Assembly (NCBI RefSeq): GCF_002795405.1
Contig: NZ_PHGZ01000032.1
Location: 1 to 64,000 of the forward strand
Direction: 5' to 3'
Source: Caviibacterium pharyngocola
GTDB taxonomy: Bacteria; Pseudomonadota; Gammaproteobacteria; Enterobacterales; Pasteurellaceae
Length of the DNA stretch: 64,000 nt
This document shows positions 1 to 12,532 of the stretch, one piece after another (positions within the stretch are counted from its first letter, which is position 1; the number at the start of each line of letters is the position of its first letter). The notes beneath the pieces are model-generated. The model was not told the origin of the DNA, searched no databases, and saw only the letters and a list, made by a program, of their open reading frames with translations. The position numbers were made by a program, and so were the translations under genes.

Positions 1-115
1 ACTGCTACATAATACCGTAACGTTCAGATTGCACAACGTTCGAAAGCGCGCGCCAAACAACGACAAAATCCGACCGCACTTTTAAGCAAATGGGCAGAAT
101 TAGCGGAGCTTTAAA

Positions 116-1354
116 ATGTTGGGATTTTTTAAACGCAAAACAGAACGGCGCAACACCGTGACGATTGACGAATTGCTTTCTTATATGGGCGTCGCCAACA
201 CCGGCGCCGGCGAGTTTGTCAGTCCGCAGACGGCGGAGGCGTTGCCGGCGGTAATGAACGCCGTTACGGTGATCAGTGAGGCGGTGGCAAGTATGCCGTG
301 CTATTTGTATCGATTAAAAGGTGACGGACGGGAAAGAGTGCTTGATCATCCGATTGATTATTTACTCAATGAAATGCCTAATCGGTCACAAACACCCTAT
401 CAGTTCAAATACACAATGATGAGGCATTGTTTATTAAACGGCAATGCTTACGCGGTGATCGGGTGGGATAAACAAGGACAGCCGGAAAGTTTAACGCCTT
501 ATGCGCCGAGTGCGGTCAATATTCAGCGCACACCGAAAGGCGAATATATTTATCAAATCACCGATTTAGACGGCAAAGTAAAAACCTATTTGCAAGATGA
601 AATTCTCCATTTGCGTCATTCGTCCATTGACGGCTTTATGGGGCGTTCGCCGGTGGCGATTTGTCGCGAAACCGTGGGATTAGGTTTAGCACAGCAACGA
701 CACGGCGCAAGCGTAATGAAAAACGGTTTAATGGCAAGCGGGATTATTACTACCGGCGAATGGTTGGATGATGTCAAAGCGAATAAAGCGATTAAAGCGC
801 TTGAACGCTATAAGGGTGCGAAGAACGCGGGTAAAACGCCCGTGCTTGAAGGCTCAATGCAATATCAACAGCTTGGAATGACAAACCAAGATGCGGAATG
901 GTTACAAAGCCGCGCGTTTACGATTGCGGACATTGCGCGGATCTACAATATTAGCCCGATTTTCTTGCAAGATTATTCACATTCGAGCTATGCCAATTTT
1001 AGCGAGGCAAGCCGTGCTTTCTTGTCGCAAACGTTGCGCCCGTGGCTAACGAACTTTGAACAGCAATTAAAAGACGCCTTAATGATTGATATAACGGATC
1101 GCAATGCACCGCGCTATTTAATCGAATTTGATACAAGCGATTTATTGCGTATTAGTCAAACGGAACGCTTTCAGTCTTACGATGTGGCGATTAAATCGGG
1201 TGTAATGAACCCGAACGAAGTCCGCAGACGCGAAGGCTTGCCGCCTTATGCCGGCGGAGAGGAATTTAGTCAGGCGTGGAAACAAACCGTTAAAGTCGAA
1301 AAAGACGCCGATAAGGAAAAAGACAAAGAGGCAAGCAATGGCGAGAATGATTAA
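116..1354 (+). CDS. HK97-family phage portal protein
   Basis: The 412-residue product matches the length and sequence style of HK97-type portal proteins, which form the dodecameric ring at one capsid vertex through which DNA is packaged. The N-terminal half has the family's pattern of a PAVMNAVTVISEAVASMP helix followed by a region ending in HPIDYLLNEMPN. The later segment SRAFTIADIARIYNISPIFL is typical of the stem/crown part. The C-terminus is lysine- and glutamate-rich. The stop overlaps the start of the next head gene, so the two are probably translationally coupled. Capsid and protease genes normally flank a portal and are expected to the left of the window. The weak ribosome site lies in an A-rich stretch just before ATG. 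Confidence 0.9.
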   Translation: MLGFFKRKTERRNTVTIDELLSYMGVANTGAGEFVSPQTAEALPAVMNAVTVISEAVASMPCYLYRLKGDGRERVLDHPIDYLLNEMPNRSQTPYQFKYTMMRHCLLNGNAYAVIGWDKQGQPESLTPYAPSAVNIQRTPKGEYIYQITDLDGKVKTYLQDEILHLRHSSIDGFMGRSPVAICRETVGLGLAQQRHGASVMKNGLMASGIITTGEWLDDVKANKAIKALERYKGAKNAGKTPVLEGSMQYQQLGMTNQDAEWLQSRAFTIADIARIYNISPIFLQDYSHSSYANFSEASRAFLSQTLRPWLTNFEQQLKDALMIDITDRNAPRYLIEFDTSDLLRISQTERFQSYDVAIKSGVMNPNEVRRREGLPPYAGGEEFSQAWKQTVKVEKDADKEKDKEASNGEND

Positions 1355-1694
1355 AGCCGGCAAATATAACAAACTTATCACGTTGCAAGCGCGCGATTTT
1401 GAACGGGAAAAGCAACATAATCAATATGGGGCGGGAACTCCGATTTGGGCGGATGTTGTCACGGTTCGGGCTAGCGTCGAACCGATTCAAGGGCGTGAAT
1501 ATTTTTCCGGTCCATTCCAATTAGGTGAAGACATTATTCGGGTACGCCTCCGCTATCTGCCGAATATTACCCGAAAAATGCGCGTGAAATACGGCGATCG
1601 CTATTTAGAAATTAATTCGGTGATTGATAGCAAAGAAGAACACCGAGAACTTCAATTAATGTGCAAGGAGGGTGAGGCTTATGGCAAGCGTTAA
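1338..1694 (+). CDS. Phage head-tail adaptor (head-tail joining protein)
   Basis: About 118 residues from the ATG at 1338, which has a GAGG ribosome site six bases upstream and overlaps the end of the portal gene. The frame is open further upstream to 1248, but that segment is the portal gene read in another frame. Length, basic beginning (MARMIKAGKYN) and the pattern IRVRLRYLPNITRKMRVKYG are typical of the phage head-tail joining family (HK97 gp7/SPP1 gp16-like), small beta-barrel proteins that cap the connector. Position between portal and gp6-like connector agrees. In a satellite such a protein would let its own small capsid accept helper-phage tails. Confidence 0.82.
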   Translation: MARMIKAGKYNKLITLQARDFEREKQHNQYGAGTPIWADVVTVRASVEPIQGREYFSGPFQLGEDIIRVRLRYLPNITRKMRVKYGDRYLEINSVIDSKEEHRELQLMCKEGEAYGKR

Positions 1695-2001
1695 TATTAC
1701 GTTGGAAGAAATCAAGGCGCATTTGAACCTAATGGAAGATTTTGAACTTGATGACACCCTATTACGCACCTATGCGAAAGTCGCGCTTGAAGTCTCCCAG
1801 AATCATATAGGCAAAACATTCAGTGATGAAAACAGCGAAAAAACGGTGATATTCACCCAAGGCATAAAAGCCGGCTGTTTGATGTATATCGCTTATCTGT
1901 ATGCTAACCGTGAGGCAGTAACGGATATAGCGAATCTAAACCCTGTACCTATGGGGATTAAATCGCTTTGGGAAGTCTATCGCGAGCCGTGCGTGTATTA
2001 G
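1681..2001 (+). CDS. Phage head-tail connector (gp6-like)
   Basis: About 106 residues from ATG 1681, preceded by an AGGAGG-type ribosome site. A GTG nine bases earlier is possible but less well placed. The protein is all-helical in appearance and opens with ITLEEIKAHLNLMEDFELDD, the usual beginning of HK97 gp6/DUF-type connector proteins that bind below the portal ring. It overlaps the preceding adaptor gene, continuing the head operon. Confidence 0.8.
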   Translation: MASVNITLEEIKAHLNLMEDFELDDTLLRTYAKVALEVSQNHIGKTFSDENSEKTVIFTQGIKAGCLMYIAYLYANREAVTDIANLNPVPMGIKSLWEVYREPCVY

Positions 2002-2008
2002 GTGATGT

Positions 2009-2371
2009 ATGCCCTATCAACCGTTAAAGCGTTGCACCTATCCGAGTTGCAAGAATCGCGTAAAAGCCGGTCGGTGCGAACTTCACCAACAGAAGAAACC
2101 GGATAACCGCCTACCGGCAAGCAAACGCGGTTACGATCACAAATGGAGTAAATATCGCGCCGAGTACCTCAAACATAACCCGCTATGCGTGATGTGTTTA
2201 GCCAAGGGCATTTATACACCCGCAACCGTCATAGACCATATTAAACCCGTAGAGAACGGGCAAACCGACCCGCTATTCTGGGATATGCATAATCATCAAG
2301 CCTTATGCCGTGATTGCCATAGCTATAAGACAAGGGTAATCGACAAGCGTGGTTATGGGGCGAAGAAATAG
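2009..2371 (+). CDS. HNH endonuclease of the packaging module
   Basis: A 120-residue protein with paired cysteines near the N-terminus (CTYPSC and CELH) and a classic HNH core: CVMC, then VIDHIKP, then NHQALCRDCHSYKT. HNH proteins encoded beside terminase genes in cos phages (for example HK97 gp74) stimulate terminase cleavage of the packaging site. Its place immediately before an iteron array and the small terminase gene supports that role here. The start at 2009 is preceded by a weak AGGTG. A homing-endonuclease role is less likely because it sits in a conserved packaging order. Confidence 0.87.
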   Translation: MPYQPLKRCTYPSCKNRVKAGRCELHQQKKPDNRLPASKRGYDHKWSKYRAEYLKHNPLCVMCLAKGIYTPATVIDHIKPVENGQTDPLFWDMHNHQALCRDCHSYKTRVIDKRGYGAKK

Positions 2372-2395
2372 ACGGTTGCGCTATCACAACAGTTC

Positions 2396-2494
2396 AACCG
2401 TTACCCTATGGAAACCTTTAGTTGTGGTCATATGACCATAACTTAACCGTGGTGATATAACCATACTTCAGTTGTGTACATATGTACACAGTTG
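2396..2494. repeat. Four palindromic iterons of about 25 bp upstream of terS
   Basis: Three consecutive 25-bp units start at 2420, 2445 and 2470 and carry palindromic cores at exact 25-bp spacing: TGGTCATATGACCA (2425-2438), TGGTGATATAACCA (2450-2463) and TGTACATATGTACA (2475-2488). A fourth, more degenerate unit (2396-2419) has the imperfect palindrome GTTnCCnTAnGGnAAC. The half-spaces repeat AGTTGTG/AACCGTG. The array is non-coding and lies between HNH and TerS. Such a phased array looks like a protein-binding site, either the packaging (cosB/pac-like) recognition site for the satellite TerS or an operator. Confidence 0.8.
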
Positions 2495-2516
2495 AACGGG
2501 CTCAAAATCGAGCTTG

Positions 2517-2544
2517 TTAACCAAACCGATTTTGGATTGGTTAA
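2517..2544. repeat. Inverted repeat in terS leader
   Basis: TTAACCAA at 2517-2524 is mirrored by TTGGTTAA at 2537-2544, and an inner CC/GG pair extends the stem. It lies just after the iterons and before terS, in otherwise non-coding AT-rich DNA. It could be part of the packaging site or an mRNA hairpin. There is no T-tract, so it is not a terminator. Confidence 0.55.
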
Positions 2545-2716
2545 GTTATTGATTTTAAAACAAACCTCAAATCTGAGTTTAGTTTAAATTTTAATCAATG
2601 AAATGCAAATGAGAGAGGTGGGGGGGAGTTTTGAAAAGAAAAAGGCAACCCGAAAAAACCGCCCACCCACTCAAATTTTTACGCAAAACAATTTTTTAGA
2701 AAATAAGGAAAAAAGA

Positions 2717-3085
2717 ATGACGAAACAAACTGCCTATAACGCACCGGATTTTTTGGATGACATTGCAAAAGCACAATGGAACGCCCGCATAGCACAGCTT
2801 GCCGAGCGTAACGATATTAAACCGGAAGATTTAACCAATTTAGAAATTTATTGCGTGAATTATTCATTATTTAGACAAGCGTCCGAAGATATTACGAAAA
2901 ACGGCTTTTCTTTTAAGAATAGTCAAGGTTCACGCTCCCGCAATCCGGCACTTTCTGCTAAATCAGACGCCGAAAAAGTAATGATTAAAATGTCGTCTTT
3001 GTTAGGTTTCGATCCAGTCAGTCGCCGCAGAAATCCGATTGAAACCGAAGAAACGGACGTAATTGATGAAATTTTGAGTTTATAG
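2717..3085 (+). CDS. Phage terminase small subunit (P27 family)
   Basis: TerS recognises the packaging site and hands DNA to TerL. From ATG 2717, which has an AAGGA site seven bases upstream, the product is 122 residues. The open frame reaches back to 2603, but the extra residues are low complexity and the ribosome site favours the shorter form. The helical N-terminus, the central NLEIYCVNYSLFRQA helix and the NPALSAKSDAEKVM segment are typical of P27-like small terminases. The gene ends two bases before terL. In phage satellites a divergent TerS redirects packaging to the satellite genome, so this and the upstream iterons probably form a matched pair. Confidence 0.85.
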   Translation: MTKQTAYNAPDFLDDIAKAQWNARIAQLAERNDIKPEDLTNLEIYCVNYSLFRQASEDITKNGFSFKNSQGSRSRNPALSAKSDAEKVMIKMSSLLGFDPVSRRRNPIETEETDVIDEILSL

Positions 3086-3087
3086 TA

Positions 3088-4755
3088 ATGAGTATCTGGC
3101 ACGATTACGCCGAGCAAGTCAGAACCGGCGAGATTGTCGCGTGTAAGCGCATTAAACAAGCCGTCGAACGTTACTTTCAAGACTTGGCAAACCCTGACTA
3201 TTATTTTGATGAAAATGTCGTGAATAAATTTATCGCCTTTTCTCAGTTATGCCCGCACGTCAAAGGGCATTTACGCGGACAACCGATAATACTTTCAGAC
3301 TGGCAAGTTTTTTTATTTGCGAACCTTTTCGGCTTTAAGCATAAAAACACCGGCTTGAGAAAATACCGCTCCGCCTATATTCAAGTTGCGCGCAAAAATG
3401 CAAAATCCACAGTCGCGGCAGTGTTGGCAAATTGGTTTTTGATAATGGAAAGCGGACAGCAAGACATTTACACGGCGGCAGTTAGTCGCGATCAAGCGCG
3501 CATTGTTTTCGACGACGCGCGACAAATGTGCCTACTCTCCAAACCGCTTAGAAACCGCGTCAGCATTCAACAGCATAAAATGGTTAACCCAAAATCGAAC
3601 AGCTTAATGCGCCCGTTAGCGGCGAAATCAAGCACAATCGAGGGCACTAACCCAAGTCTTGCGATTGTGGACGAATACCACTTACACACCGACAACAGCG
3701 TGTATAGTGCGCTTGAATTAGGGCAAGGCGCGCGCCCGCAAGGGCTATTATTTGCCATTACGACCGCCGGCAGTAACACGATTTCCGCGTGCAAACAGCA
3801 TTATGATTATTGTTGCCAAATTCTGGACGGCAACGAACACAACGACAGCATTTTTATAATGATTTTCGAATTGGACGAAGAAAGCGAAATCGATCATCCT
3901 GAAAATTGGATCAAAGCTAACCCGAATATCGGCAAATCCATACCCTATTTAGACTTTGAAAACACCATAAAAAAAGCGCGCGGCATTCCTTCCGAATGGG
4001 TGGAAATGTTGACGAAACGCTTTAACGTCTGGTGCCAAGGTGCGACGCCGTGGCTTGCGCTAGACAGTTGGGCGCAGTGCAAAGACGACTACGACGATAG
4101 CGATTTATTGCACCTTGATTGTTATATGGGGCTAGATTTATCCAGTACGAACGACTTAACCAGTATTTGCTATACCTTTCCGCACGAAAATAAAGTGCGG
4201 TTATTTTGCCGGCATTATATCCCTGAATATCAGCTTGAGAACGTGGCAAATAAAAACCGCGCAATCTATCGGCAATGGGAGCGTCAAGGGTGGCTAATCA
4301 CCACGCCGGGCGATTGTATCGATTACGACAAAATCCGCGATGATATTTTAAAAGACAGTGAACGATTTAATATCAAAATGATTGGTTTTGACGTATGGAA
4401 CGCAACACACTTAAGAACGCAGTTGCAATCTGCCGGCTTAGAAGTGGAACCCTTTCCGCAAACCTATCAGCGGTTTAGTCCGGTGGCGAAATCCGCCGAG
4501 GTGCTTATTAATCGCAAAATGATATTACACAACGGCGATCCGGTTCTGGCGTGGGCATTATCTAACGTCGTAATGGAAACCGACGCAAACGCTAACATTA
4601 AACCGAACAAGAAAAAAGCCGCGAATAAAATCGATCCGGCAATCGCGTTTTTAATGTCATTCGGCACTTATCAGCTTGAATTTGGCGACGTCATTTTTGA
4701 ATTATCGCCGGAACACCAAGCCTTACTCGAAAACTTTAACGGGATTGATTTATAA
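3088..4755 (+). CDS. Phage terminase large subunit (HK97/P27 type)
   Basis: The 555-residue packaging motor has an N-terminal ATPase and a C-terminal RNase H-like nuclease. The Walker A-like ARKNAKST lies at residues 101-108 and the Walker B LAIVDEYH at about 191-198. A first nuclease aspartate is in MGLDLSSTND near residue 345, with a second acidic strand at MIGFDVW. The length is normal and the gene appears intact. It follows terS with a two-base gap. TerL cleaves concatemeric DNA and pumps it through the portal. Confidence 0.93.
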   Translation: MSIWHDYAEQVRTGEIVACKRIKQAVERYFQDLANPDYYFDENVVNKFIAFSQLCPHVKGHLRGQPIILSDWQVFLFANLFGFKHKNTGLRKYRSAYIQVARKNAKSTVAAVLANWFLIMESGQQDIYTAAVSRDQARIVFDDARQMCLLSKPLRNRVSIQQHKMVNPKSNSLMRPLAAKSSTIEGTNPSLAIVDEYHLHTDNSVYSALELGQGARPQGLLFAITTAGSNTISACKQHYDYCCQILDGNEHNDSIFIMIFELDEESEIDHPENWIKANPNIGKSIPYLDFENTIKKARGIPSEWVEMLTKRFNVWCQGATPWLALDSWAQCKDDYDDSDLLHLDCYMGLDLSSTNDLTSICYTFPHENKVRLFCRHYIPEYQLENVANKNRAIYRQWERQGWLITTPGDCIDYDKIRDDILKDSERFNIKMIGFDVWNATHLRTQLQSAGLEVEPFPQTYQRFSPVAKSAEVLINRKMILHNGDPVLAWALSNVVMETDANANIKPNKKKAANKIDPAIAFLMSFGTYQLEFGDVIFELSPEHQALLENFNGIDL

Positions 4756-4756
4756 A

Positions 4757-4831
4757 ATGCAGCTAGAAACAATTTATTTACTAATCTATAGTTCGATACT
4801 TTATGCGTTATTTTATTATTGGAGCGAATAA
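4757..4831 (+). CDS. Small hydrophobic peptide between terL and gp10-like gene
   Basis: A 24-residue frame starts one base after the terL stop and ends exactly where the next gene's ATG begins. The product (MQLETIYLLIYSSILYALFY and four more residues) is almost one membrane helix with many Tyr and Leu. There is no clear ribosome site, so it would rely on coupling to terL. The perfect fit between two genes suggests it is translated, at least as a coupling device. No family recognised. Confidence 0.4.
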   Translation: MQLETIYLLIYSSILYALFYYWSE

Positions 4832-5284
4832 ATGGGCGATTTTACACAGCAAATTGAGAAATTTCTTCAAAAAGTTGACACAAAATTAGCCCGTCATCCG
4901 AAAGCCGCACGCGAGGCGCTCGGCGAGGCGGGCAAAGCGATGAAAAAAGCACTCGAACCGAATGTACCGGTTCAGGGAAAAAGCACGCCGACGCGTCGCA
5001 AAGGGACATTAAAGCGACACGTTAAAGCACGCATAAAAAGAAAAGACGGTAGTCTGGTGATTTATGTCGGTATATGGAAGAAAGGCGCACAGAAAAATAA
5101 AGAAAAGAATTTAGCGAAAGGCAAACACGCCTATTTAAACGATCCGTTTTTCTGGCATTTTGTGGATAAAGGCACGCAGAAAATGAGTGCGCGTAATTTC
5201 TTATCAAGCAAAAAAGAACATTATGAACAAATAGGCTTTGACAAAATGAAAGAGGTTTATCTCAGTAAGATGACCGAAAAATAA
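4832..5284 (+). CDS. HK97 gp10-like head completion / tail-component protein
   Basis: A 150-residue basic protein. An N-terminal helix is followed by GKAMKKALEPNVPVQGKSTP and a segment of strands (GSLVIYVGIWKKGAQKNK, FFWHFVDKGTQKMSARNFL) characteristic of the HK97 gp10/putative tail-component family, which sits at the head-tail interface. The motif KGTQKMSARNFL is close to the family signature. A GGAG ribosome site lies five bases upstream of the ATG. It is the last structural gene before a terminator-like hairpin, and no true tail genes follow. Confidence 0.78.
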   Translation: MGDFTQQIEKFLQKVDTKLARHPKAAREALGEAGKAMKKALEPNVPVQGKSTPTRRKGTLKRHVKARIKRKDGSLVIYVGIWKKGAQKNKEKNLAKGKHAYLNDPFFWHFVDKGTQKMSARNFLSSKKEHYEQIGFDKMKEVYLSKMTEK

Positions 5285-5316
5285 AAAACGCCGGTTGATC
5301 AGAACGGCGTTATTTG
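5285..5316. terminator. Hairpin terminator after head/packaging operon
   Basis: AACGCCG (5287-5293) pairs with CGGCGTT (5305-5311) immediately after the gp10-like stop codon. The tract on the + side is short (TTATTTG), while the minus side has six T's, so it may work in both directions with modest strength on +. Confidence 0.6.
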
Positions 5317-5419
5317 TGCAAATCAATTTTAGAAGTTTGCTTATTTATCGTATCGAGGATGAACGACTAACCAAGCAATAAAATTATAGCAAAACAGTAA
5401 AAATCATCAAGGAAAACCT

Positions 5420-5803
5420 ATGAACGACGAATTAAATTCATTATTAGACGATGTATCTACCGTATTGGAAGAATTAAAAAAAGTCGATAGAGATACCTTT
5501 ATTAAACGGATATTTGAAAAACAAAATAAAGGCGAGGAAGTCAATAACACGGATGACATAAAATTTGTTTTTGAATATTTGAAAACAATCTTTTTCTATT
5601 TTGACCGAAACAAAACAAAAATCATTAAACTGATGATGAAAGACGAGCGATTTGATGACGAAGATAGACAACAGATTAATCAATTTATCAACGTGAATAA
5701 TCAGAAATTGGACTGGATGATCGGTTTTATCGAACAAGCGCTAGCGGTGCATACGACAAGCCTAGATAAACAGCTCGAAGGCTTTAATCAGCGCCTGAAT
5801 TAA
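5420..5803 (+). CDS. Hypothetical acidic helical protein of the satellite
   Basis: 127 residues, acidic and predicted helical throughout, with heptad-like stretches near both ends. An AAGGA site precedes ATG 5420. Low-GC composition compared with the head genes. No recognisable domain. It stands alone between the terminator of the head operon and a structured RNA element at 5821, and could be a regulator or size-redirecting accessory factor, but no sequence feature proves either. Confidence 0.6.
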   Translation: MNDELNSLLDDVSTVLEELKKVDRDTFIKRIFEKQNKGEEVNNTDDIKFVFEYLKTIFFYFDRNKTKIIKLMMKDERFDDEDRQQINQFINVNNQKLDWMIGFIEQALAVHTTSLDKQLEGFNQRLN

Positions 5804-5820
5804 TTTATAATCATTGACAG

Positions 5821-5871
5821 ACGCGCCTAGGGTCGCTCCCGAAAGCAAAGCACCTTACTTTGTCGGCGCGT
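5821..5871 (+). ncRNA. Possible three-way-junction RNA element
   Basis: ACGCGCC (5821-5827) pairs perfectly with GGCGCGT (5865-5871). Inside, GGG/CCC (5830-5832 with 5838-5840) and CAAAG/CTTTG (5846-5850 with 5858-5862) form two further short stems. The result is a compact cloverleaf-like fold of 51 nt just before the next gene's ribosome site. It may be a leader regulatory RNA or a processed small RNA. Support is by base pairing only. Confidence 0.4.
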
Positions 5872-5907
5872 TTCCATTCATAAGGACAAATGCAAAAGGG
5901 GCATTAT

Positions 5908-6942
5908 ATGAGTAATCTAAGAGTATTGCCTAAAAAGGCTTATTCTATCTCGGATGTCGTGAGATATATCACGATTAATCATCATATTAGCTTATCAGAA
6001 AGGGATATTCTTGAATATATCCAAAATGGTGATTTACAAGCGTCTATTTTTCTTCAAGGAAATATAAACGAAATCACCGCCATTAATAGAAAAACGATAC
6101 CTAAAAAAGAGCATTTAGGCATAAGAAAAAGCAATATTTTTATAAAAATCAATCAAGCAATAACCGATTTTCAAGTTTCTTATTTTGGTGATGAATTATC
6201 TTACGAAATAAAAGCGAACAATCATTTATTCGATCTCAATATTTATCTAGATAGTCGTTATTATTTAGCAAGTTATTTTTCAGAAAACAATATCATTCAG
6301 CTTTTTAGCGGCGAAACAGATAAATTCAAACGTTTAACATTCACCAGTTATTTTAATTTACCTAAGCATATTTTTGAAAATCAAAATACAGATAATTTAC
6401 TCGAAAGCAAAGTAATAAATTATTTTCCTAATATTTCTATAGCAGAAAAAGACGGTATTTATTTAAGTATTCCGGTCGCAGAAAATAAAACAAAAATATT
6501 GCTTGATGATATTTGTATATTACACGAAGATGTTTTGCGTTTCTTAGAAATGTTTTCCGTGATTGATTCCGAATCGAATTTAACCGAATTACAAAAACTC
6601 AACGAAGAAATTAACAAGAAAAATCAAGAAATCAACGCCCTTTATCAAAAAACCGAAAGTCAGAAAATAACGATTGAACAGCAAGCGAAAGAAATTAATA
6701 ATTTAAAGATTGCCGCAAGCGAGGAAAATCGCCCTATTCTGCTTGGCGCTTATCGGGAAAAAGATCCGTTAAAAATAGCGATTGATATTCGACGGAAATA
6801 TTGGGCTAACTATCCCGAAAATGTGAAAACTGATACACAAATCACAAATAACATTGTGCGAGATTATCAAGTCAAAAGAACGTTTGCCAAAGAAATAGAA
6901 AAAATCGCTTGCCCTATCGACAGAAGAAAAAACAAATCTTAA
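5908..6942 (+). CDS. Satellite-encoded hypothetical protein with coiled coil
   Basis: About 344 residues from ATG 5908 (AAGGGG six bases upstream); an alternative ATG at 5890 also has an AAGGA site. The N-terminus (KKAYSISDVVRYI, then SLSERDILEYIQNGDL) resembles a small helix-turn-helix or DNA-binding module. Residues of roughly 225-275 form a lysine/glutamate/glutamine-rich coiled coil. The C-terminal 60 residues (PLKIAIDIRRKYWANYPEN, then TNNIVRDYQVKRTFAKEIEK) look like a separate folded helical domain seen in several mobile-element proteins. Low GC. The gene ends before a strong terminator. Function unknown, possibly DNA binding. Confidence 0.7.
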   Translation: MSNLRVLPKKAYSISDVVRYITINHHISLSERDILEYIQNGDLQASIFLQGNINEITAINRKTIPKKEHLGIRKSNIFIKINQAITDFQVSYFGDELSYEIKANNHLFDLNIYLDSRYYLASYFSENNIIQLFSGETDKFKRLTFTSYFNLPKHIFENQNTDNLLESKVINYFPNISIAEKDGIYLSIPVAENKTKILLDDICILHEDVLRFLEMFSVIDSESNLTELQKLNEEINKKNQEINALYQKTESQKITIEQQAKEINNLKIAASEENRPILLGAYREKDPLKIAIDIRRKYWANYPENVKTDTQITNNIVRDYQVKRTFAKEIEKIACPIDRRKNKS

Positions 6943-6966
6943 CCTAACATATTGATTTTATTATAG

Positions 6967-6994
6967 CCTCCCTATATAGGGAGGTTATTTTTTT
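6967..6994 (+). terminator. Rho-independent terminator
   Basis: CCTCCC/GGGAGG with a TATATA centre (6967-6984), followed by TTATTTTTTT. It closes the 5908-6942 gene and separates it from the AlpA transcription unit. Confidence 0.85.
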
Positions 6995-7106
6995 ATCGCC
7001 TTGCTATAACACCGCCCTATTCCTTTAGTGCTTAAATACCTTCCGACGAAATACTTAACGGGATGCAACAGCGTACTACGCAGTTTAACAAATGGAGGGC
7101 ATTTTT

Positions 7107-7316
7107 ATGACAGACACACAAACCCAATCTAAACAGCTTATTTCAGGCAAAAAAGTCACTGAAATTGTCGGCATTGGTCGTACAAAACTCAATCTTTTAG
7201 TCAAAGCGAATCAATTCCCGCAACCTATCCGCTTTTCTCAAAATTTTATTCGTTGGGATTTAGAGGAAGTAAATGCGTGGATTGAAGAACAGAAAGAAAA
7301 ACGAGTAACGCAATGA
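7107..7316 (+). CDS. alpA: AlpA-family transcriptional activator
   Basis: A 69-residue winged helix-turn-helix protein of the AlpA/excisionase fold. ATG 7107 is preceded by a GGAGG site inside a longer frame that begins at 7092. The core reads SGKKVTEIVGIGRTKLNLLV, then IRFSQNFIRWDLEEVNAWIE, the family's usual DNA-binding helix and wing. In P4-like satellites and PICIs AlpA switches on excision and replication genes and is often the target of helper-phage induction. Its start overlaps nothing upstream, but its stop overlaps the start of the next small gene (ATGA). Confidence 0.88.
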   Translation: MTDTQTQSKQLISGKKVTEIVGIGRTKLNLLVKANQFPQPIRFSQNFIRWDLEEVNAWIEEQKEKRVTQ

Positions 7317-7453
7317 GTGATTTAAATCTGAGTGAACAAGGTGCAGACAATGCCGGTAAACGCATTTCAACAGGGATTTTATTTTTTCTTTGTTGCGGCG
7401 GACTGGCTTTATTAACCCTAGCAATAGCCTTCGGTTATTACTTGATTAAATAA
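7313..7453 (+). CDS. Small single-pass membrane protein downstream of alpA
   Basis: 46 residues. The start overlaps the alpA stop (ATGA), so translation is coupled. A polar N-terminus (MSDLNLSEQGADNAGKRIS) precedes one hydrophobic helix containing FFLCCGGLALLTLAIAFGYY. No family recognised. Position between alpA and the Icd-like frame suggests a function in establishment or superinfection control, but this is inference only. Confidence 0.6.
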   Translation: MSDLNLSEQGADNAGKRISTGILFFLCCGGLALLTLAIAFGYYLIK

Positions 7454-7465
7454 CGGATAAATAAA

Positions 7466-7499
7466 AACACTGCGGGAGCTATCCGGCTCGCACAGTGTT
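7466..7499 (+). ncRNA. Stem-loop leader RNA, possible P4 CI-like immunity RNA
   Basis: AACACTG (7466-7472) pairs with CAGTGTT (7493-7499), and an inner GAGC/GCTC pair (7476-7479 with 7486-7489) continues the stem around a small loop. It lies upstream of the Icd/Ash-like frame. In phage P4 the corresponding leader encodes the CI antisense RNA that terminates transcription of the replication operon. The position matches; the sequence has not been compared with known CI RNAs. Confidence 0.4.
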
Positions 7500-7542
7500 C
7501 GAAAGGAAAAAATTAAGACAATTTAATTGCGGGTGATTCAAT

Positions 7543-8931
7543 ATGAAATTAAATCAATTTAATTATAATATCAATGAAAACATTTCACAATCAAATTTCT
7601 TTACAAAGTGCAGTGAAAAATCCTATTATTTTCTTGCAGTCGCAAAATCGACCGCCGAGCCTGAGAACTCGAATCAATACAAGGCGAACAGTAGCACGCC
7701 ATTAAACCGTGCTTTTTTTGTTCGTAACATTCGCACACCTGAAAAATTTAACCGGCTCAAAATCGAGCGTGTTAAATACACCAAAAGCAATGTGGCGGAT
7801 TATATTAATAATTTGCCGAATTGTTTTTCTTCTATGGTAGCGTATGGCGGGAAAGGTTTCGCCCTTTGCTGTGTTCCTTGTATCGCAGTTTCTCAGCCCG
7901 TTATACGTTACCGCCAACACAAAAGCCTGAGAACTTTTCAAGCGGTAATTTCTACAAATCAATACAAGGAAAAACCGCAAATGAAACTATTCATTTTTGT
8001 GGCAATTCGCCGCACAGATTTAACCAACAAAACGCACAAAATCCGCATTATTGCCGAAAGTGAAATGCAAGCTCGCGCCCAATTAGCTCGGCAATTCATT
8101 CTATTTTGGGCGGGTGAAATCAATCTAAAAACTTTCCCAAAAAACACCGCACTTTTGCCGGCTGTAGAAAATAACCGCTTGCAAGGCGTCGCAGATGATT
8201 GTAGTATTGAAAGCACTACAACAGTTAACGGCTTGCGCAGTCGTCAAACAAGCGCTTTTTTTATGTCTCAAATTCCTTTCAATGGGCATTTAGCCTATTC
8301 ACAAGCCGAATTTGTGACAAGGTCTATACGCCGAAATAAGGCGGAGTTTATCCGCACGAATAAGGCGAGCCGATTAACTGCGGTAGTTGAAGCCTTGTCA
8401 CACCTTACACAGGACGGCAAGTCAATTTTTACTAATACAGTTAAGAGAAATTCACAAATGAAAACCAATCAAAACACCGCACTAATGCCGGTGCGTTCTA
8501 CCCTATCCGTTCAACCGTCTGCGCCGGCACAAGGGGCGTTTATGTGTAATCTGAATAAATTACCAGTATTGTCAAATTCAATCTGTCGCGCTATTATCGC
8601 AAGCACTACAGCAAAAAGCGGAACCCGCACCCGTAAGACTTGCGGATTTTTATTGTCAAAAATTCATTCCTTGAACGTTCCTGTAAAATCAGGCGCGCTT
8701 TTATATATCGAATTTGCGGCAAGGTTAAGAGATCGAAATAAGGCTTTAAGCACGAATAAGATCCGCCGACTTTTTGCGGTAGTTGATACCTTGTCGCACC
8801 CTACTACGGGCGATACCTTAAACACTGTAACAAAAAGAGATCCAAAAATGAAAACCAATCAAAACACCGCACTAATGCCGGTGCGTTCTACCCTATCCGT
8901 TCAACCGTCTGCGGGGGTGCGCTATGCGTAA
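7543..8931 (+). CDS. Icd/Ash-like repetitive protein (host cell division inhibitor Icd-like region)
   Basis: A 462-codon open frame of mosaic appearance. The middle part, starting at an internal ATG at 7981 with AAGGA ten bases upstream, reads FIFVAIRR, then HKIRIIAESEMQARAQLARQ, the signature of P4-type Icd-like proteins that act on cell division. The part before it is compositionally unlike a normal protein and resembles the Ash-type leader frames of P4 satellites. The part after it consists of two tandem 390-bp units (8211 and 8601), each ending in an identical 66-bp segment that begins with its own ATG. The real products may therefore be several nested small proteins and not one 462-residue chain. 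Confidence 0.55.
   Translation: MKLNQFNYNINENISQSNFFTKCSEKSYYFLAVAKSTAEPENSNQYKANSSTPLNRAFFVRNIRTPEKFNRLKIERVKYTKSNVADYINNLPNCFSSMVAYGGKGFALCCVPCIAVSQPVIRYRQHKSLRTFQAVISTNQYKEKPQMKLFIFVAIRRTDLTNKTHKIRIIAESEMQARAQLARQFILFWAGEINLKTFPKNTALLPAVENNRLQGVADDCSIESTTTVNGLRSRQTSAFFMSQIPFNGHLAYSQAEFVTRSIRRNKAEFIRTNKASRLTAVVEALSHLTQDGKSIFTNTVKRNSQMKTNQNTALMPVRSTLSVQPSAPAQGAFMCNLNKLPVLSNSICRAIIASTTAKSGTRTRKTCGFLLSKIHSLNVPVKSGALLYIEFAARLRDRNKALSTNKIRRLFAVVDTLSHPTTGDTLNTVTKRDPKMKTNQNTALMPVRSTLSVQPSAGVRYA
8211..8523 (+). repeat. 390-bp-period repeat, copy A
   Basis: Starts with AAGCACTACA and ends with a 66-bp segment (8458-8523) that recurs without change in copy B 390 bp downstream. The interior is diverged but aligns at the protein level (TNKASRLTAVVEALSHLT in A, TNKIRRLFAVVDTLSHPT in B). 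Confidence 0.8.
8601..8913 (+). repeat. 390-bp-period repeat, copy B
   Basis: Second unit, offset by exactly 390 bp from copy A at both its first ten bases and its last 66 bases (8848-8913). It abuts the start of the next small gene at 8924. The identical ends and diverged middle suggest an old duplication with recent gene conversion or selection on the 66-bp piece. Confidence 0.8.
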
Positions 8932-9142
8932 TTTATCCAAAGAAACCGCCGATTTAAGAGCCGAACTAATCGACTTGTTGAAAGATGTTGATTTTATCGA
9001 GCATTGCCTAGTCAACGCACAAGCGGAGAAATGGCAAGCAATCGCCCTAAAAAACCTAAATAGTGCTTACAGACAAATGCAGTTATTTAGCGAAATTGCA
9101 CAGATGAAAGCACAGCAAGCAGAACAAGGAGGCGAACAATGA
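8924..9142 (+). CDS. Small hypothetical satellite protein
   Basis: 72 residues, helical, rich in Ala, Gln and Glu (QLFSEIAQMKAQQAEQGGEQ at the end). The start overlaps the end of the preceding repetitive frame by eight bases and the stop overlaps the next ATG by four, so it belongs to a tightly coupled run of small genes leading to the primase. No known family. Confidence 0.6.
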   Translation: MRNLSKETADLRAELIDLLKDVDFIEHCLVNAQAEKWQAIALKNLNSAYRQMQLFSEIAQMKAQQAEQGGEQ

Positions 9143-9381
9143 CTGATATTCTAAACATTCAAGACAAGCTTTCACAACATATCGAACAAGCAAAGGCGAT
9201 CGTCGATTATTTAGCGGCGGATATAGCTTGTAATGACAGCTTTTCGGCAAACAAAGACATTATTGCAAACACCTTGTGGGCGGTGCAAACGTTGCTAGAA
9301 AACGCCTCAAATTCACAAGGCGAGTTATTCGACGCAATAAAGGAGGTTAAAAATGGCACGCAGAAAAACCATAAAAATTAA
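9139..9381 (+). CDS. Small hypothetical satellite protein
   Basis: 80 residues, acidic and helical (NIQDKLSQHIEQAKAIVDYL). A GGAGG ribosome site precedes the ATG, and the stop lies inside the next gene. Part of the coupled small-gene run upstream of the replication protein. No family recognised. Confidence 0.6.
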   Translation: MTDILNIQDKLSQHIEQAKAIVDYLAADIACNDSFSANKDIIANTLWAVQTLLENASNSQGELFDAIKEVKNGTQKNHKN

Positions 9382-9565
9382 ACCTTTTCAGCCCAAAGAT
9401 GACCGATTACCAACGTGGGAGCAGTTAGTAAAAGCGATAAAAGAGACAGATCTCTATCTCGGCTTTGCTAAAACATACATTCACAACGGACATTTACAGG
9501 GCGCAACCCAAGCCCTGAGATCAATTAAAAGAGCAACCACAACAGGATTAAAAATCAAGGAGTAA
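9353..9565 (+). CDS. Small basic hypothetical satellite protein
   Basis: 70 residues. The N-terminus is strongly basic (MARRKTIKIKPFQPKDD), the rest helical (LYLGFAKTYIHNGHLQGATQ). A strong GGAGG site precedes the ATG inside the end of the previous gene. The basic start could bind nucleic acid. Function unknown. Confidence 0.6.
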   Translation: MARRKTIKIKPFQPKDDRLPTWEQLVKAIKETDLYLGFAKTYIHNGHLQGATQALRSIKRATTTGLKIKE

Positions 9566-9569
9566 CAAA

Positions 9570-10097
9570 ATGGCAACCTCAAAAATTAACGCACTGGCAG
9601 ATTTAAAACAATGGAAAGGTCAATTTAACCAAACCAAAAACGGAGGGATTGCCCGCCTTAAACATAAGGGCGACGCTCAAAGCAATAACGCGCCGTCAAA
9701 AGCACTTGATAGCGTTCAGCCACCAAAGAAAACGCTAAAACCGTTCAACCCGTTCGCCCTGAAATTAGCGCAGTGCAATCGAATGTTCGATTTGACCCGT
9801 CAAGCGATTGAACGCTGTAAACGTGATTATCCCGATTATTACTATCACAAGCGCAAAATGGCAACGGAGTGCAACGAAATTGTCCGGCGACTAAATGACG
9901 GGCGCGCACTAATTAAACGCTTAACCGCTTATACAGCAGAGCAAGACCCGACACAACAAGCGACGATCAAAGAAAGTTTGCAAGCGATTAACTATCTTTC
10001 CGTGAAATTCAAAGAATTAGCGGACTATGTGGCGCAAGTGGACGGTAACGGCGATAAATTGGAATCGTTAGACAATAAAACCGATTTAGAGGTGTAA
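9570..10097 (+). CDS. Hypothetical satellite protein upstream of primase
   Basis: 175 residues with an AAGGAG site before ATG. A basic, asparagine-rich N-terminal third (including KPFNPFALKLAQCNRMFDLT) leads into a helical C-terminal half. It ends two bases before the helicase/primase gene, which suggests an accessory role in replication, for example as a loader or inhibitor. No motif proves this. Confidence 0.6.
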   Translation: MATSKINALADLKQWKGQFNQTKNGGIARLKHKGDAQSNNAPSKALDSVQPPKKTLKPFNPFALKLAQCNRMFDLTRQAIERCKRDYPDYYYHKRKMATECNEIVRRLNDGRALIKRLTAYTAEQDPTQQATIKESLQAINYLSVKFKELADYVAQVDGNGDKLESLDNKTDLEV

Positions 10098-10099
10098 GA

Positions 10100-11933
10100 A
10101 TGGGAAGATTAAAAAATGCGCCTTTGCTCGCTAAGGCGAACAATTCAAACAGCAACGCGCTCGATGAATTTTTTATCCTCGCCGGCGCCGGCGTCTGGGA
10201 ATTTTACCGAGATAAAGCCAAACAAAACGGCGCGGGCGAAGGTTGGCGATTATTGTGCGATATATTCAAAATGCCATACAGCGAACAGCCTAGCGCATTG
10301 ACGGATGAACAGCTTGAAAACTTATCGCAGTATCACATAGCGCCAAGCAATCGCCAGATAATCAGTATTATCGAATGTAACGAATTAACTCAAGCACAGC
10401 GCACCACAATCAGCCTAAACCTCGCCCGAAACACGCGGGCGAAAACGGTAGTATTTCGGTCGATTGCCGGCGAAATCTTGGAAAACGTCAGCGGATATGT
10501 CGAACGCTTACGCAATGACAAGGAAGTCGTCGCGCAAGCCGAAATGATTGCGCCGGAAGAAATCGATTTAAATTCTTCCGCAGTCACGGAAGAAATGCGA
10601 GTAAATGCGTTCTTAAAATGGCACGCCGAACCATTGGCAAGAGATACGCACAAAAATCAAACACTAAAATATAACGGTAGATTTTGGGAACCCTTGCAAG
10701 ATGAAGATGTTAAGCGATTAATTTTAGACTTTTTCAAGGCATATCACGCCGATTATTCAATAAACCGCATAAACAAATTATGCGAATTGATTAATTTAAG
10801 TATTGACCGTTTTGAACATACTAGCAATAAATATCTAGGCTTTAATAATGGCGTACTGAATAAACTCACATTAGATTTTGAAGCGCATAAGCCGGAGCAT
10901 TATCTAAAAGGCGTGGAAGATGTGGAATGTAATATTCAAGCGACCGACACACCGCACTTTTTTAACTGGCTTGATTTTGTCAGCAACGGCAATCAAGAAA
11001 AACGTAACGCCCTACTTGCCGGCTTATATATGGTTTTAACAAATCGCTATGAATGGCATTTATTTCTCGAAATTACCGGCGTCGGCGGGAGTGGAAAAAG
11101 TGTTTATTCCGAAATCGCCCGAATGATTAACGGTGAATTTAATACCGCCTATTTGACACTGGAAGATTTGGAAAGCGATAAAAAGCGCTCAATGCTAATT
11201 AATAAAAGTTTATCCATATCGCCCGACCAAAAACGCTATAAAGGTTCCGGCGAAGAATTAAAAGCTATTACCGGCGGGGGAAAAATTAGCGTTAAGATTA
11301 ATTATAAAGATCCGTTTGACGCCTTGCTTACACCGGTCATTATGGTTGTCACCAACGAGCCGCTAATCTTCACCGACCGCAACGGGGGGGATTAAACGGC
11401 GCCGAGTGATAATCTTATTCGATCGCAAAGTGCCGGACGGAAAAGTTGATCCGTACTTCCTCGATAAAGTGCGGGCGGAAATTTACGGGATTGTGAAATT
11501 CTTAGCGGCGCAATTTCCTATTCCTGACGCCGCACGAAAAATTCTAGTCGAATATAAAGACAGTATCGACGCCAAAGAAACCAAAAAGCACGCCAATCAT
11601 TTAATTGAATTTGCCGACGTGTTCGAGGTGCGGAAATTGCCCGAAAATCCGGACAGACAACAATTAAAGGATAACTTTAGCGGGCTAATATGGGGGAGCG
11701 CGAGAAGTACAAAACAGCCACACGAAACGCTATATCTGGCTTATCTCTTTTTTTGTGACTGTATGAATATAAAGCCGATTCCGCTTAATACATTCAAAAG
11801 CGCCCTACCGGACGCACTCAAAGAAACCGGACAACAAGCACCGATACAAGAAAGAGTTAAAGACGGCTATCTGGTAACGAATATTTACTGGAAAACGCCA
11901 CACCAAGATACATTTAAACGGTGGGAAAGCTAA
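10100..11933 (+). pseudogene. P4/D5-type replicative helicase-primase, broken by a frameshift in a G7 tract
   Basis: Two frames that together encode about 610 residues. The first (10100-11395) carries an N-terminal region, a D5_N-like region and a superfamily 3 helicase core with Walker A GVGGSGKS and the strand PVIMVVTNEPLIF. The second (to 11933) continues with RRRVIILFDRKVPDG, the next conserved piece of the same family. Deleting one G from the run of seven at 11384-11390 restores an unbroken reading (NGG-IKRRRV). It therefore looks like a one-base insertion, a phase-variable tract or a sequencing error. This protein would initiate satellite replication at an origin not identified here. 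It lies at the end of the small-gene run. Confidence 0.82.
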
Positions 11934-11943
11934 AAACCTAATG

Positions 11944-11971
11944 AAAGCGACTGTAAAAAGTCGCTTTTTTT
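11944..11971 (+). terminator. Rho-independent terminator of the replication operon
   Basis: AAAGCGACT/AGTCGCTTT nine-pair stem directly after the primase stop, followed by a T-run. Confidence 0.9.
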
Positions 11972-12175
11972 ATAGCAGTGAATAATTCCACTGAACTCAA
12001 GTATAATACAAGTGATTTAATCACTGAAAAAATTATTATACATTTCAACAAGATAACACTAAAAATAGTGAATAAGTGGAGAAGTGACTAAAAATGCTAT
12101 AAAAAGTATAAAAAAACTTGCACAATTCTTTTATACTCAAGAAACTAATTAGCTAGATTTGAAACAAAAAAACCT

Positions 12176-12196
12176 ATGTAACCACGGATGTAACCA
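12176..12196. repeat. Direct repeats near the element end (possible integrase arm sites)
   Basis: ATGTAACCA occurs at 12176-12184 and again at 12188-12196, 12 bp apart and about 55 bp from the tRNA-like junction. Tyrosine integrases usually bind short direct repeats in the arms flanking att. Assignment is by position and form only. Confidence 0.4.
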
Positions 12197-12248
12197 AAAC
12201 AAAAAACAAAATAAAAAATAACATATATTTCATACGGTTAAATTGAAT

Positions 12249-12270
12249 TTCAAGTCTCGCTCAGGCACCA
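12249..12270 (+). other. Putative attachment-site remnant: tRNA-Leu 3' end
   Basis: The 22 bases run from TTCAAGTC, the usual T-loop of tRNA-Leu, to CAGGCACCA, the acceptor and CCA end. The upstream side is not tRNA sequence. A Leu tRNA with similar 3' end is present intact at 25559-25645. Such isolated 3' ends mark the distal att of elements that integrate into tRNA genes. One base is missing compared with a standard T-arm plus acceptor, so the copy has drifted or the crossover lies within it. Confidence 0.62.
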
Positions 12271-12280
12271 GTTGACTAAA

Positions 12281-12319
12281 CAAAGCCTTGCATAACTTAA
12301 CGCAAGGCTTTGTTTTTTC
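12281..12319 (+). terminator. Rho-independent terminator next to att
   Basis: CAAAGCCTTGC (12281-12291) pairs with GCAAGGCTTTG (12302-12312), followed by TTTTTT. The position just after the tRNA 3'-end fragment suggests it was the tRNA gene's own terminator before integration. Confidence 0.88.
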
Positions 12320-12532
12320 TAGTAAATTCAAGCTTTTTACGAATTTCTCTTATCATAGTTTAACGTCGCTAAACGGCGCTAATCGCAAATTTTAGGAACA
12401 CTGTTAGTAACACTGTATATGTTTGTTATTATTTTTCCATTTATAGCGTTGTGACTTAGATCAATGAATCTAATTTTTAAGAATAGTAGGATTATAAAAC
12501 AATCCAAAATCTTATATTAAGGAGAATTTAAA

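Follow-up and report, generated by a model that had tools for sequence, protein, structure and literature searches.

A probable capsid-forming phage satellite in the tRNA-Leu(GAG) gene of Caviibacterium pharyngocola, with its integration site apparently inside the origin

The island and its two ends

The left end of the window, the 64,000-nucleotide stretch of Caviibacterium pharyngocola DNA analysed here (bases 1-64000 of contig C26, 66,580 bases, in a draft genome of 2.49 Mb in 43 contigs), carries the head, packaging, regulatory and replication genes of an island which we identified as a very probable capsid-forming phage-inducible chromosomal island (cf-PICI). Pfam and PHROG searches recovered on the + strand all the genes named in the initial annotation, namely portal, adaptor, connector, HNH, TerS, TerL, gp10-like, AlpA, Icd-like and SF3 helicase, and the tRNA-Leu 3' end placed there at the right proved real, being a partial copy at 12249-12411. 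The head and packaging features and the right attachment (att) site are as follows, Pmp8 (OR544139) being a Pasteurella record deposited as a phage.

13..114, + strand: prohead protease, last 33 codons and stop (69% identity to residues 153-186 of the Pmp8 protease)
116..1354, + strand: portal protein (PF04860, 1.6e-98; 84.5% to Pmp8)
1248..1694, + strand: head closure protein Hc1, given as the frame, the true start probably lying near 1347 (PF05521 / phrog_25, 1.9e-21)
1672..2001, + strand: head-tail adaptor/connector Ad1 (PF05135, phrog_40; PHROG 2.6e-23)
2009..2371, + strand: HNH endonuclease of the packaging module (PF01844 / phrog_144, 2.7e-8)
2603..3085, + strand: TerS, given as the frame, likely start 2717 (PF05119 / phrog_83, 4.3e-24)
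2658..2716, + strand: cos-like packaging signal in the HNH-TerS interval, exact pattern at 2658-2685
3088..4755, + strand: TerL (PF20441 and PF03354, 2.3e-49 and 3.4e-30)
4832..5284, + strand: HK97 gp10-like neck/tail-completion protein (PF04883, 1e-5; phrog_5, 9.7e-8)
12249..12411, + strand: attR, partial tRNA-Leu(GAG) 3' end and downstream sequence (95% to C21:58452-58615)

The left part of the island lies in the last 3 kb of contig C21, where tRNA-Leu(GAG), an att repeat, the gene of a 405-aa tyrosine integrase, that of a 146-aa gpU-family tail terminator and a truncated HK97 major capsid gene (N-terminal 261 codons, then cut by the contig end) are found on the same strand. The att repeat of 163 bp (window 12249-12411 versus C21:58452-58615, 95% identity) covers in C21 the 3' end of an intact tRNA-Leu(GAG) and the sequence that follows it; the window copy is without one base of the tRNA end. 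The integrase, capsid and protease genes (the last as its final 33 codons) and the second att, which the initial annotation had expected on leftward extension, were all located in this way. Gene order and the att repeats argue for the joining of C21 to C26, as does the lack of further fragments, other capsid and protease matches in the genome lying solely in a separate prophage on C34. With Pmp8 as a ruler, about 0.9 kb is missing between the contigs (the capsid C-terminus and most of the protease), and the whole island was estimated by hand at about 16 kb.

Head and packaging genes of a capsid-forming satellite

As set out in part of PMC10690885, a cf-PICI carries its own capsid, protease, portal, connectors, TerS, TerL and HNH and needs a helper for tails alone. 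The island has this head set, with portal, Hc1 and Ad1 complete and capsid and protease partial, and this packaging set (TerS, TerL, HNH), together with an integrase, an AlpA-type regulator, a primase/helicase (frameshifted here) and a specific att site. No tube, tape-measure, tip or lysis gene was detected in the 20 frames scanned against Pfam and PHROG, about 0.9 kb being unseen, and the tail, tape-measure and lysis genes of a tailed prophage are absent between the att sites in the seen sequence. The earlier statement that the island has no tail or lysis gene therefore stands for tape-measure and lysis genes; it does not stand for the gp10-like protein, of a neck family, and for gpU, encoded just outside the window. 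The possibility of an ordinary prophage, whose tail, tape-measure and lysis genes would stand to the left of base 1, was examined as well; it fails because no tape-measure or lysis gene was found, the gap of about 0.9 kb aside. Membership of the cf-PICI group in a Pasteurellaceae host, as initially proposed, is upheld by composition. The kind and its host range are already known, because Pasteurella is listed among cf-PICI hosts in a passage of PMC10803314.

Comparison of TerL with 2616 matching phage records gave two at 80-90%, Pasteurella Pmp7 and Pmp8 (86%), and three at 60-80%, of which two, an E. coli/Klebsiella-type pair, are listed at 70%; the other 2611 fall below 60%, the best among the matches listed reaching at most 36%. 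LR881103 is at 70%, and the cos-like site is shared with enterobacterial islands. Within the family, 46 of 140 genomes contain a TerL match at E 0.001 or better, and by hand count 33, the present genome included, contain one at least 79% identical. One of them, G086 (L070-L073), has 14 TerL matches to the satellite kind, some equal in score and others decayed, two of the matches standing head to tail about 16.07 kb apart. The best solved match of the capsid was 9gyi 'Major head protein' (3.7e-81), followed by the Rcc01687 capsid (1.8e-16); the capsid of an E. coli cf-PICI is grouped with that of the Rhodobacter capsulatus gene transfer agent in a section of PMC12846349.

The interval between HNH and terS contains a conserved stretch which we read as a putative cos. 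Allowing at most two mismatches, the cos-like pattern matched once in the window against 0.01 expected from shuffles, and 28 of the 35 elements compared, including two E. coli islands and not LR881103, have an exact 12-mer in this interval. The degenerate pattern occurs in 34 stretches of the genome collection, 33 of which adjoin, in register, HNH and/or terminase genes of this satellite kind, the single match without HNH, TerS or TerL alongside being L136 (Ursidibacter arcticus). Many of the 21 Pasteurellaceae stretches (five from one genome) are elements that supplied the pattern; all 13 stretches outside the family (Enterobacteriaceae, Proteus, Xenorhabdus, Gilliamella, Aeromonas), none used to build it, have HNH/terminase genes.

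Relatives were obtained as 34 loci from 30 genomes with a close TerL, plus two Pasteurella records; the three further close-TerL genomes are the present one and G024 and G047, whose TerL is broken or short. Gene order was compared in 32 elements, comprising 31 loci (the further copies L071-L073 of one genome dropped) and Pmp8. The capsid gene precedes TerL in all 32, and the helicase gene lies to the right of TerL in 29 of the 29 in which it is visible, three being cut by contig ends. In 24 of the 32 the integrase is encoded past the helicase and on the opposite strand; in four, as in the present island, it lies at the left on the same strand. One further element shows a fragment of an integrase at the left locus edge, and none was seen in three. 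The distinct gene order suggested by the initial annotation is thus distinct from that of enterobacterial cf-PICIs but is the rule among relatives, and as a peculiarity of this island it was rejected. Two scars were observed in the same genome, behind tRNA-Val(GAC) (C7, L010:3341-3630) and tRNA-Met(CAT) (C40, L011:3073-3330), each with sequence resembling the island's att-to-integrase leader and with the initial codons of a decayed integrase, but with no element; in relatives from other species the same tRNA-Val(GAC) and tRNA-Met(CAT) adjoin an integrase.

Pmp8 shares the order from tail terminator to primase (portal 84.5%, TerL 86%) and differs in its cargo and in its integrase gene, annotated 'similar to integrase', which is at the other end on the opposite strand. 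The Pmp7 record (OR544138) stops at an Ad1-like remnant, without portal, protease and capsid. Although deposited as complete Pasteurella phages, OR544138 (L082) and OR544139 (L042) look like a partial and a near-complete satellite, respectively; among the papers listed by a literature search on Pasteurella multocida prophages, none mentioned Pmp8. In the other branch, vB_KppS-Ant (LR881103) and E. coli islands at fis, called cf-PICIs here by composition, share the order capsid-protease-portal-Hc1-Ad1-HNH-TerS-TerL, a helix-turn-helix regulator and an Icd-like gene, and two of the three complete islands also have a P4-type primase. They differ in having int/att placed in the interval from TerL to the regulator gene, which in E. 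coli means at fis, and iterons as one block between helicase and capsid. Two other known systems have features in common with the island. PmCI172/PmCI86 of Pasteurella multocida is described, in the part of PMC6092414 devoted to it, as a PICI with a major capsid homolog, small-headed particles and a Mu-like helper. The Streptomyces satellites MulchRoom and MiniFlayer have their own capsid and packaging genes and depend on a helper, but differ by virulent helpers and, as their authors put it in the pertinent passages, by lacking a primase homolog and significant cf-PICI homology (PMC10690885).

HK97-type head genes, the damaged helicase and the interrupted protease region would also suit the remnant of an ordinary HK97-like prophage that had lost its tail and lysis genes. 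Against such a remnant, a search with 14 siphovirus proteins of tail and lysis function, taken from the C34 prophage and from phage Pmp14, gave no match in the present island or in 31 of the 32 relatives of the same order, while the positive control, in which eight of the queries originate, returned all 14; 31 of the 32 relatives also have no unassigned frame above 350 aa in the element, the exception being L075 with its tape measure. TerL is 70-86% identical to satellite-type records and below 60% to 2611 of 2616 phage records, AlpA, C4 RNA and iterons are of satellite type, and both att sites flank the module set. The remnant was rejected on the TerL identities and the tail and lysis gene search, and we regard it as extremely improbable.

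Regulation, replication and two iteron clusters

To the right of the packaging module lie the cargo, regulatory and replication features, again on the + strand where a strand was assigned.

5420..5803, + strand: 127-aa protein in the cargo slot (no Pfam/PHROGs family at 0.001; weak DUF6291 below cut-off; no PADLOC match)
5820..5886, + strand: int-alpA RNA (RF02996, 41.4 bits, gathering score 35.8)
5890..6942, + strand: 350-aa protein (homologs in 14 of 32 relatives; no Pfam/PHROGs/PADLOC match)
7092..7316, + strand: AlpA-type excisionase/regulator (PF05930, 8.8e-8)
7543..8931, + strand: Icd-like/repressor-type frame of 462 aa (phrog_6928, transcriptional repressor, 3.1e-12)
7623-7675: C4-target motif (27.6 bits, gathering score 46.7)
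7636..7719, + strand: isrK-like RNA (48.3 bits, just below the gathering score of 50)
7830..7918, + strand: C4 antisense RNA (RF01695, 61.9 bits, gathering score 45)
8924..10097, + strand: replication operon of four small open reading frames, with counterparts in relatives
10100..11395, + strand: SF3/D5-type helicase-initiator, N-terminal part (phrog_864, primase, 3.4e-45; PF19263, PF08706)
11406..11933, + strand: SF3/D5-type helicase, C-terminal part, in another frame (PF03288)
11976..12090, no strand: iteron cluster A, after the helicase (three words differing at one position at most from that of the left cluster)

C4-type control is a feature of P1 and P4-like elements. Among the papers listed by a literature search on C4 control in satellites and PICIs, none mentioned C4 antisense RNA. 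The C4 RNA and the int-alpA RNA were each found in nine of the 11 Pasteurellaceae satellites scanned out of 33 collected, the exceptions being Pmp8 and Pmp7 (L042, L082), which have no C4 RNA at the gathering score, and L064 and L069, respectively. The Icd-like frame of the initial annotation is present, but part of it is probably not coding, because it overlaps the C4 antisense RNA, which that annotation had not reported, and the isrK-like RNA. A defence role for the cargo frames was set aside, because PADLOC matched none of four window proteins; one of two proteins from Pmp8 matched exonuclease-type models.

Words of the AAGTGAATA type (at most one mismatch) occur five times at the left end (L008:9961-10075) and three times at window positions 11976-12090, compared with five in the remaining 11.9 kb of the window part and none in the remaining 2.7 kb at the left. 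For the present island, none of 200 shuffles was as good in end-to-end word sharing, and in 19 of 29 elements, this one included, the count of 7-mers shared end to end was reached in at most 1% of 200 shuffles. When ends were exchanged among elements in 5000 permutations, the match of own ends was higher than in every one of them (mean 2.68 versus 1.71). These tests leave out L075 (cut), L042 (no sequence before gpU) and L047 and L048 (helicase unseen). Iteron words stand in the Pasteurellaceae elements both after the helicase, at the right end, and before gpU/capsid, at the left end.

In the other branch the helicase precedes the capsid, with small frames at most and no integrase between them, in all five readable records (the Klebsiella/E. 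coli record LR881103, two E. coli islands, Proteus and Gilliamella); a sixth has IS1 in this interval. LR881103 contains nine GTGAACA words at 11721-11943, between helicase and capsid, and the same interval contains eight copies of another word in one E. coli island and six of a third word in the second. When the elements are read as circles, the order of regulator, helicase, origin and capsid-to-TerL is equal in both branches, which also have HNH, cos-like site and terminase in common, and only the position of int/att differs. According to a passage of PMC6092414, the origin of Gram-negative PICIs is located just after the replication gene and has two iteron sets around an AT-rich stretch. 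By this comparison, int/att of the Pasteurellaceae elements sits inside what is one predicted origin block in the other branch, suggesting that integration would disable the origin until excision. A leaky initiator could then not fire in the chromosome, because integration would park the origin halves at opposite ends of the island.

The split may also be harmless, because P4 shows that two separated blocks can work together: GTGAACA iterons are common to its annotated ori and crr, the latter lying between the helicase gene and attP. A literature search on phage P4, crr and iterons found no paper, and one on iterons in satellite replication origins found three. The likeness to P4 raises the alternative that the island is a P4-like satellite merely carrying captured late genes, to which AlpA, the P4-type helicase and iterons placed, as in P4, after the helicase next to att would conform. 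P4 differs, however, in having no head or terminase gene annotated, and the head and terminase module and the cos-like site are common to the enterobacterial islands. Psu, Sid and Delta, a mark of P4-like satellites and annotated in P4, are families that were not detected by Pfam and PHROG in the 17 window and three C21 frames scanned. We consider a P4-like satellite with captured genes very unlikely. What looks unusual for a cf-PICI of this lineage is rather the integration site apparently inside the origin, together with a lambda-like tail-capping protein.

Tail-completion genes and the proposed cycle

This tail-capping protein is the gpU-family terminator on C21 (PF06141, 3.5e-23; Minor tail protein U chains, 7.6e-8). 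In a presence table of 32 elements, the present one included and L075 (cut) and the extra copies L071-L073 left out, as in the portal and TerL tree, gpU and the gp10-like protein are both present in 18 and both absent in 10, with gpU alone in two and the gp10-like protein alone in two (Fisher 5.7e-5). Profile searches confirmed the absences, and found neither protein in the two enterobacterial records searched (L043, L081). On the portal and TerL tree, gpU and the gp10-like protein change six and eight times, mostly together; once kinship is allowed for, about five independent contrasts remain, of which 4.3 on average go the same way (sign test, median p 0.125), too few for significance. Co-divergence of the two was rejected as weak (Spearman 0.22), presence alone going together.

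These changes would also be expected if the pair were swapped in from each helper phage instead of being owned by the satellite. In the same direction, gpU and the gp10-like protein are the most divergent structural genes in the 18 elements with both (median pairwise identity 34% and 45%, versus 59-83% for the remaining head and packaging genes) and hardly follow head-gene distances, doing so as little as integrase and helicase: Spearman coefficients with TerL are 0.28 for gpU, 0.03 for the gp10-like protein, 0.15 for helicase and 0.14 for integrase, as opposed to 0.92 for capsid-TerL and 0.87 for portal-capsid. In the gpU tree, however, all 21 satellite proteins (the gpU of G047 counted among them) branch apart from the 18 phage proteins (support 85/72). 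At this moderate support, fresh acquisition of gpU from helpers is not favoured, and any exchange of gpU would be among satellites, because the satellite gpU branch lies apart from that of phages. Swapping from helpers appears unlikely, and the best reading of gpU and the gp10-like protein is that of an old satellite-owned pair, lost and regained among satellites, which would cap helper tubes of the lambda kind. A literature search pairing phage satellite with tail terminator found nothing, the original cf-PICI descriptions lying outside that search.

The separate prophage on C34 (G000:C34:34000-62000; L009, L117) is a siphovirus that encodes terminase, portal, capsid and a tape measure, besides a gp10-like neck protein, a 1777-aa protein that we take to be J-like, a terminator of gp17 type rather than gpU type, and a tube whose match to the lambda tube family lies below threshold. 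It is a possible helper without a gpU-type terminator. The use of gpU as a marker of a helper prophage in this genome was abandoned, since the sole PF06141 match is the satellite's own.

We put at roughly 0.9 the probability that the island is a cf-PICI of about 16 kb in tRNA-Leu(GAG) with the following cycle. The C4 antisense RNA (an Rfam match) and the repressor region would keep the island silent until induction by a helper phage, when AlpA and Int would excise it. In the circular form the two iteron clusters would flank int/att about 1.7 kb apart, by hand calculation, and replication would be started at the rejoined clusters by the SF3 helicase. The island's own HNH, TerS and TerL would cleave a cos in the HNH-terS interval and package the DNA into its own HK97 heads; its gpU-type terminator and gp10-like neck protein would cap and join the helper tail, with lysis and the remaining tail parts supplied by the helper. 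The wider proposal that in Pasteurellaceae int/att moved into the origin, which excision rebuilds, and that most of these satellites own gpU and a gp10-like protein and finish tails with them is tentative, and on balance we lean somewhat against it.

Several observations weigh against the reading as a cf-PICI with the cycle above. The join of C21 to C26 is not directly seen, and capsid and protease are only partly visible, about 0.9 kb lying in the assembly gap. The SF3 helicase gene, although present, is interrupted at a conserved motif region by a frameshift within a run of G, which the initial annotation had not reported; it is one frame in 26 of 29 relatives and is also split in L062, L065 and L070. 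Ten of the 29 elements fail the iteron shuffle test at 1%, the own left end ranks first for only six of 29 and sixth (ties counted) for the present island, and neither iteron test corrects for relatedness; the own end seldom ranks first because related elements share words. Finally, tail genes are not strictly absent from this kind of satellite, because L075 (G037) holds a 903-aa tape measure between HNH and TerS (L075:3809-6520; PF20155, 5.9e-63; lambda C-terminal domain, 1.2e-20) and LR881103 holds one after TerL (L043:2036-4333; PHROG 2e-176, no Pfam match).

A lambda tail I protein is likewise encoded directly after TerL in the E. coli island L085 (SCU-125; 5.4e-7), and satellites of this kind can own single tail genes. 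The tape measures may set tail length for the satellite or interfere with the helper tail; both roles are guesses. L085 also has an annotated abortive-infection gene at its right end.

For the helicase frameshift, a true lesion, a site of slippage and an error of assembly are all conceivable. The present copy is probably defective and is not expected to move by itself, because its helicase is frameshifted and its protease region broken. The break in the assembly lies at the following feature.

1..17, no strand: contig end, dispersed repeat (17 bases common to other contigs, once beside a transposase-like gene)

The first 17 window bases match a repeat of about 25 bp dispersed in C5, C12, C13 and C14, and a longer form of it marks the extreme end of contig C13 and, on C14, adjoins a transposase-like gene. 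The break probably fell at this repeat, because window bases 1-17 recur at the C13 end and on C14; simple insertion of the C14 element does not fit as its cause, given the orientation of the repeat at base 1. The flanks of the island are chromosomal, because presumed topoisomerase-like and secG-like genes adjoin it on the left and what we take to be an nrdR-like gene on the right.

The conserved cos-like signature offers a quick DNA marker for such satellites, including those filed as phages. Under the tentative wider proposal, to which the tape measure of a few relatives also belongs, these satellites would take tail parts and not finished tails. cf-PICIs spread by fitting the tails of other phages to heads of their own. 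The satellite tail terminator, joined in single relatives by a tape measure, provides concrete genes for testing tail compatibility, and an origin cut by the att site would be a testable way for excision to license replication.

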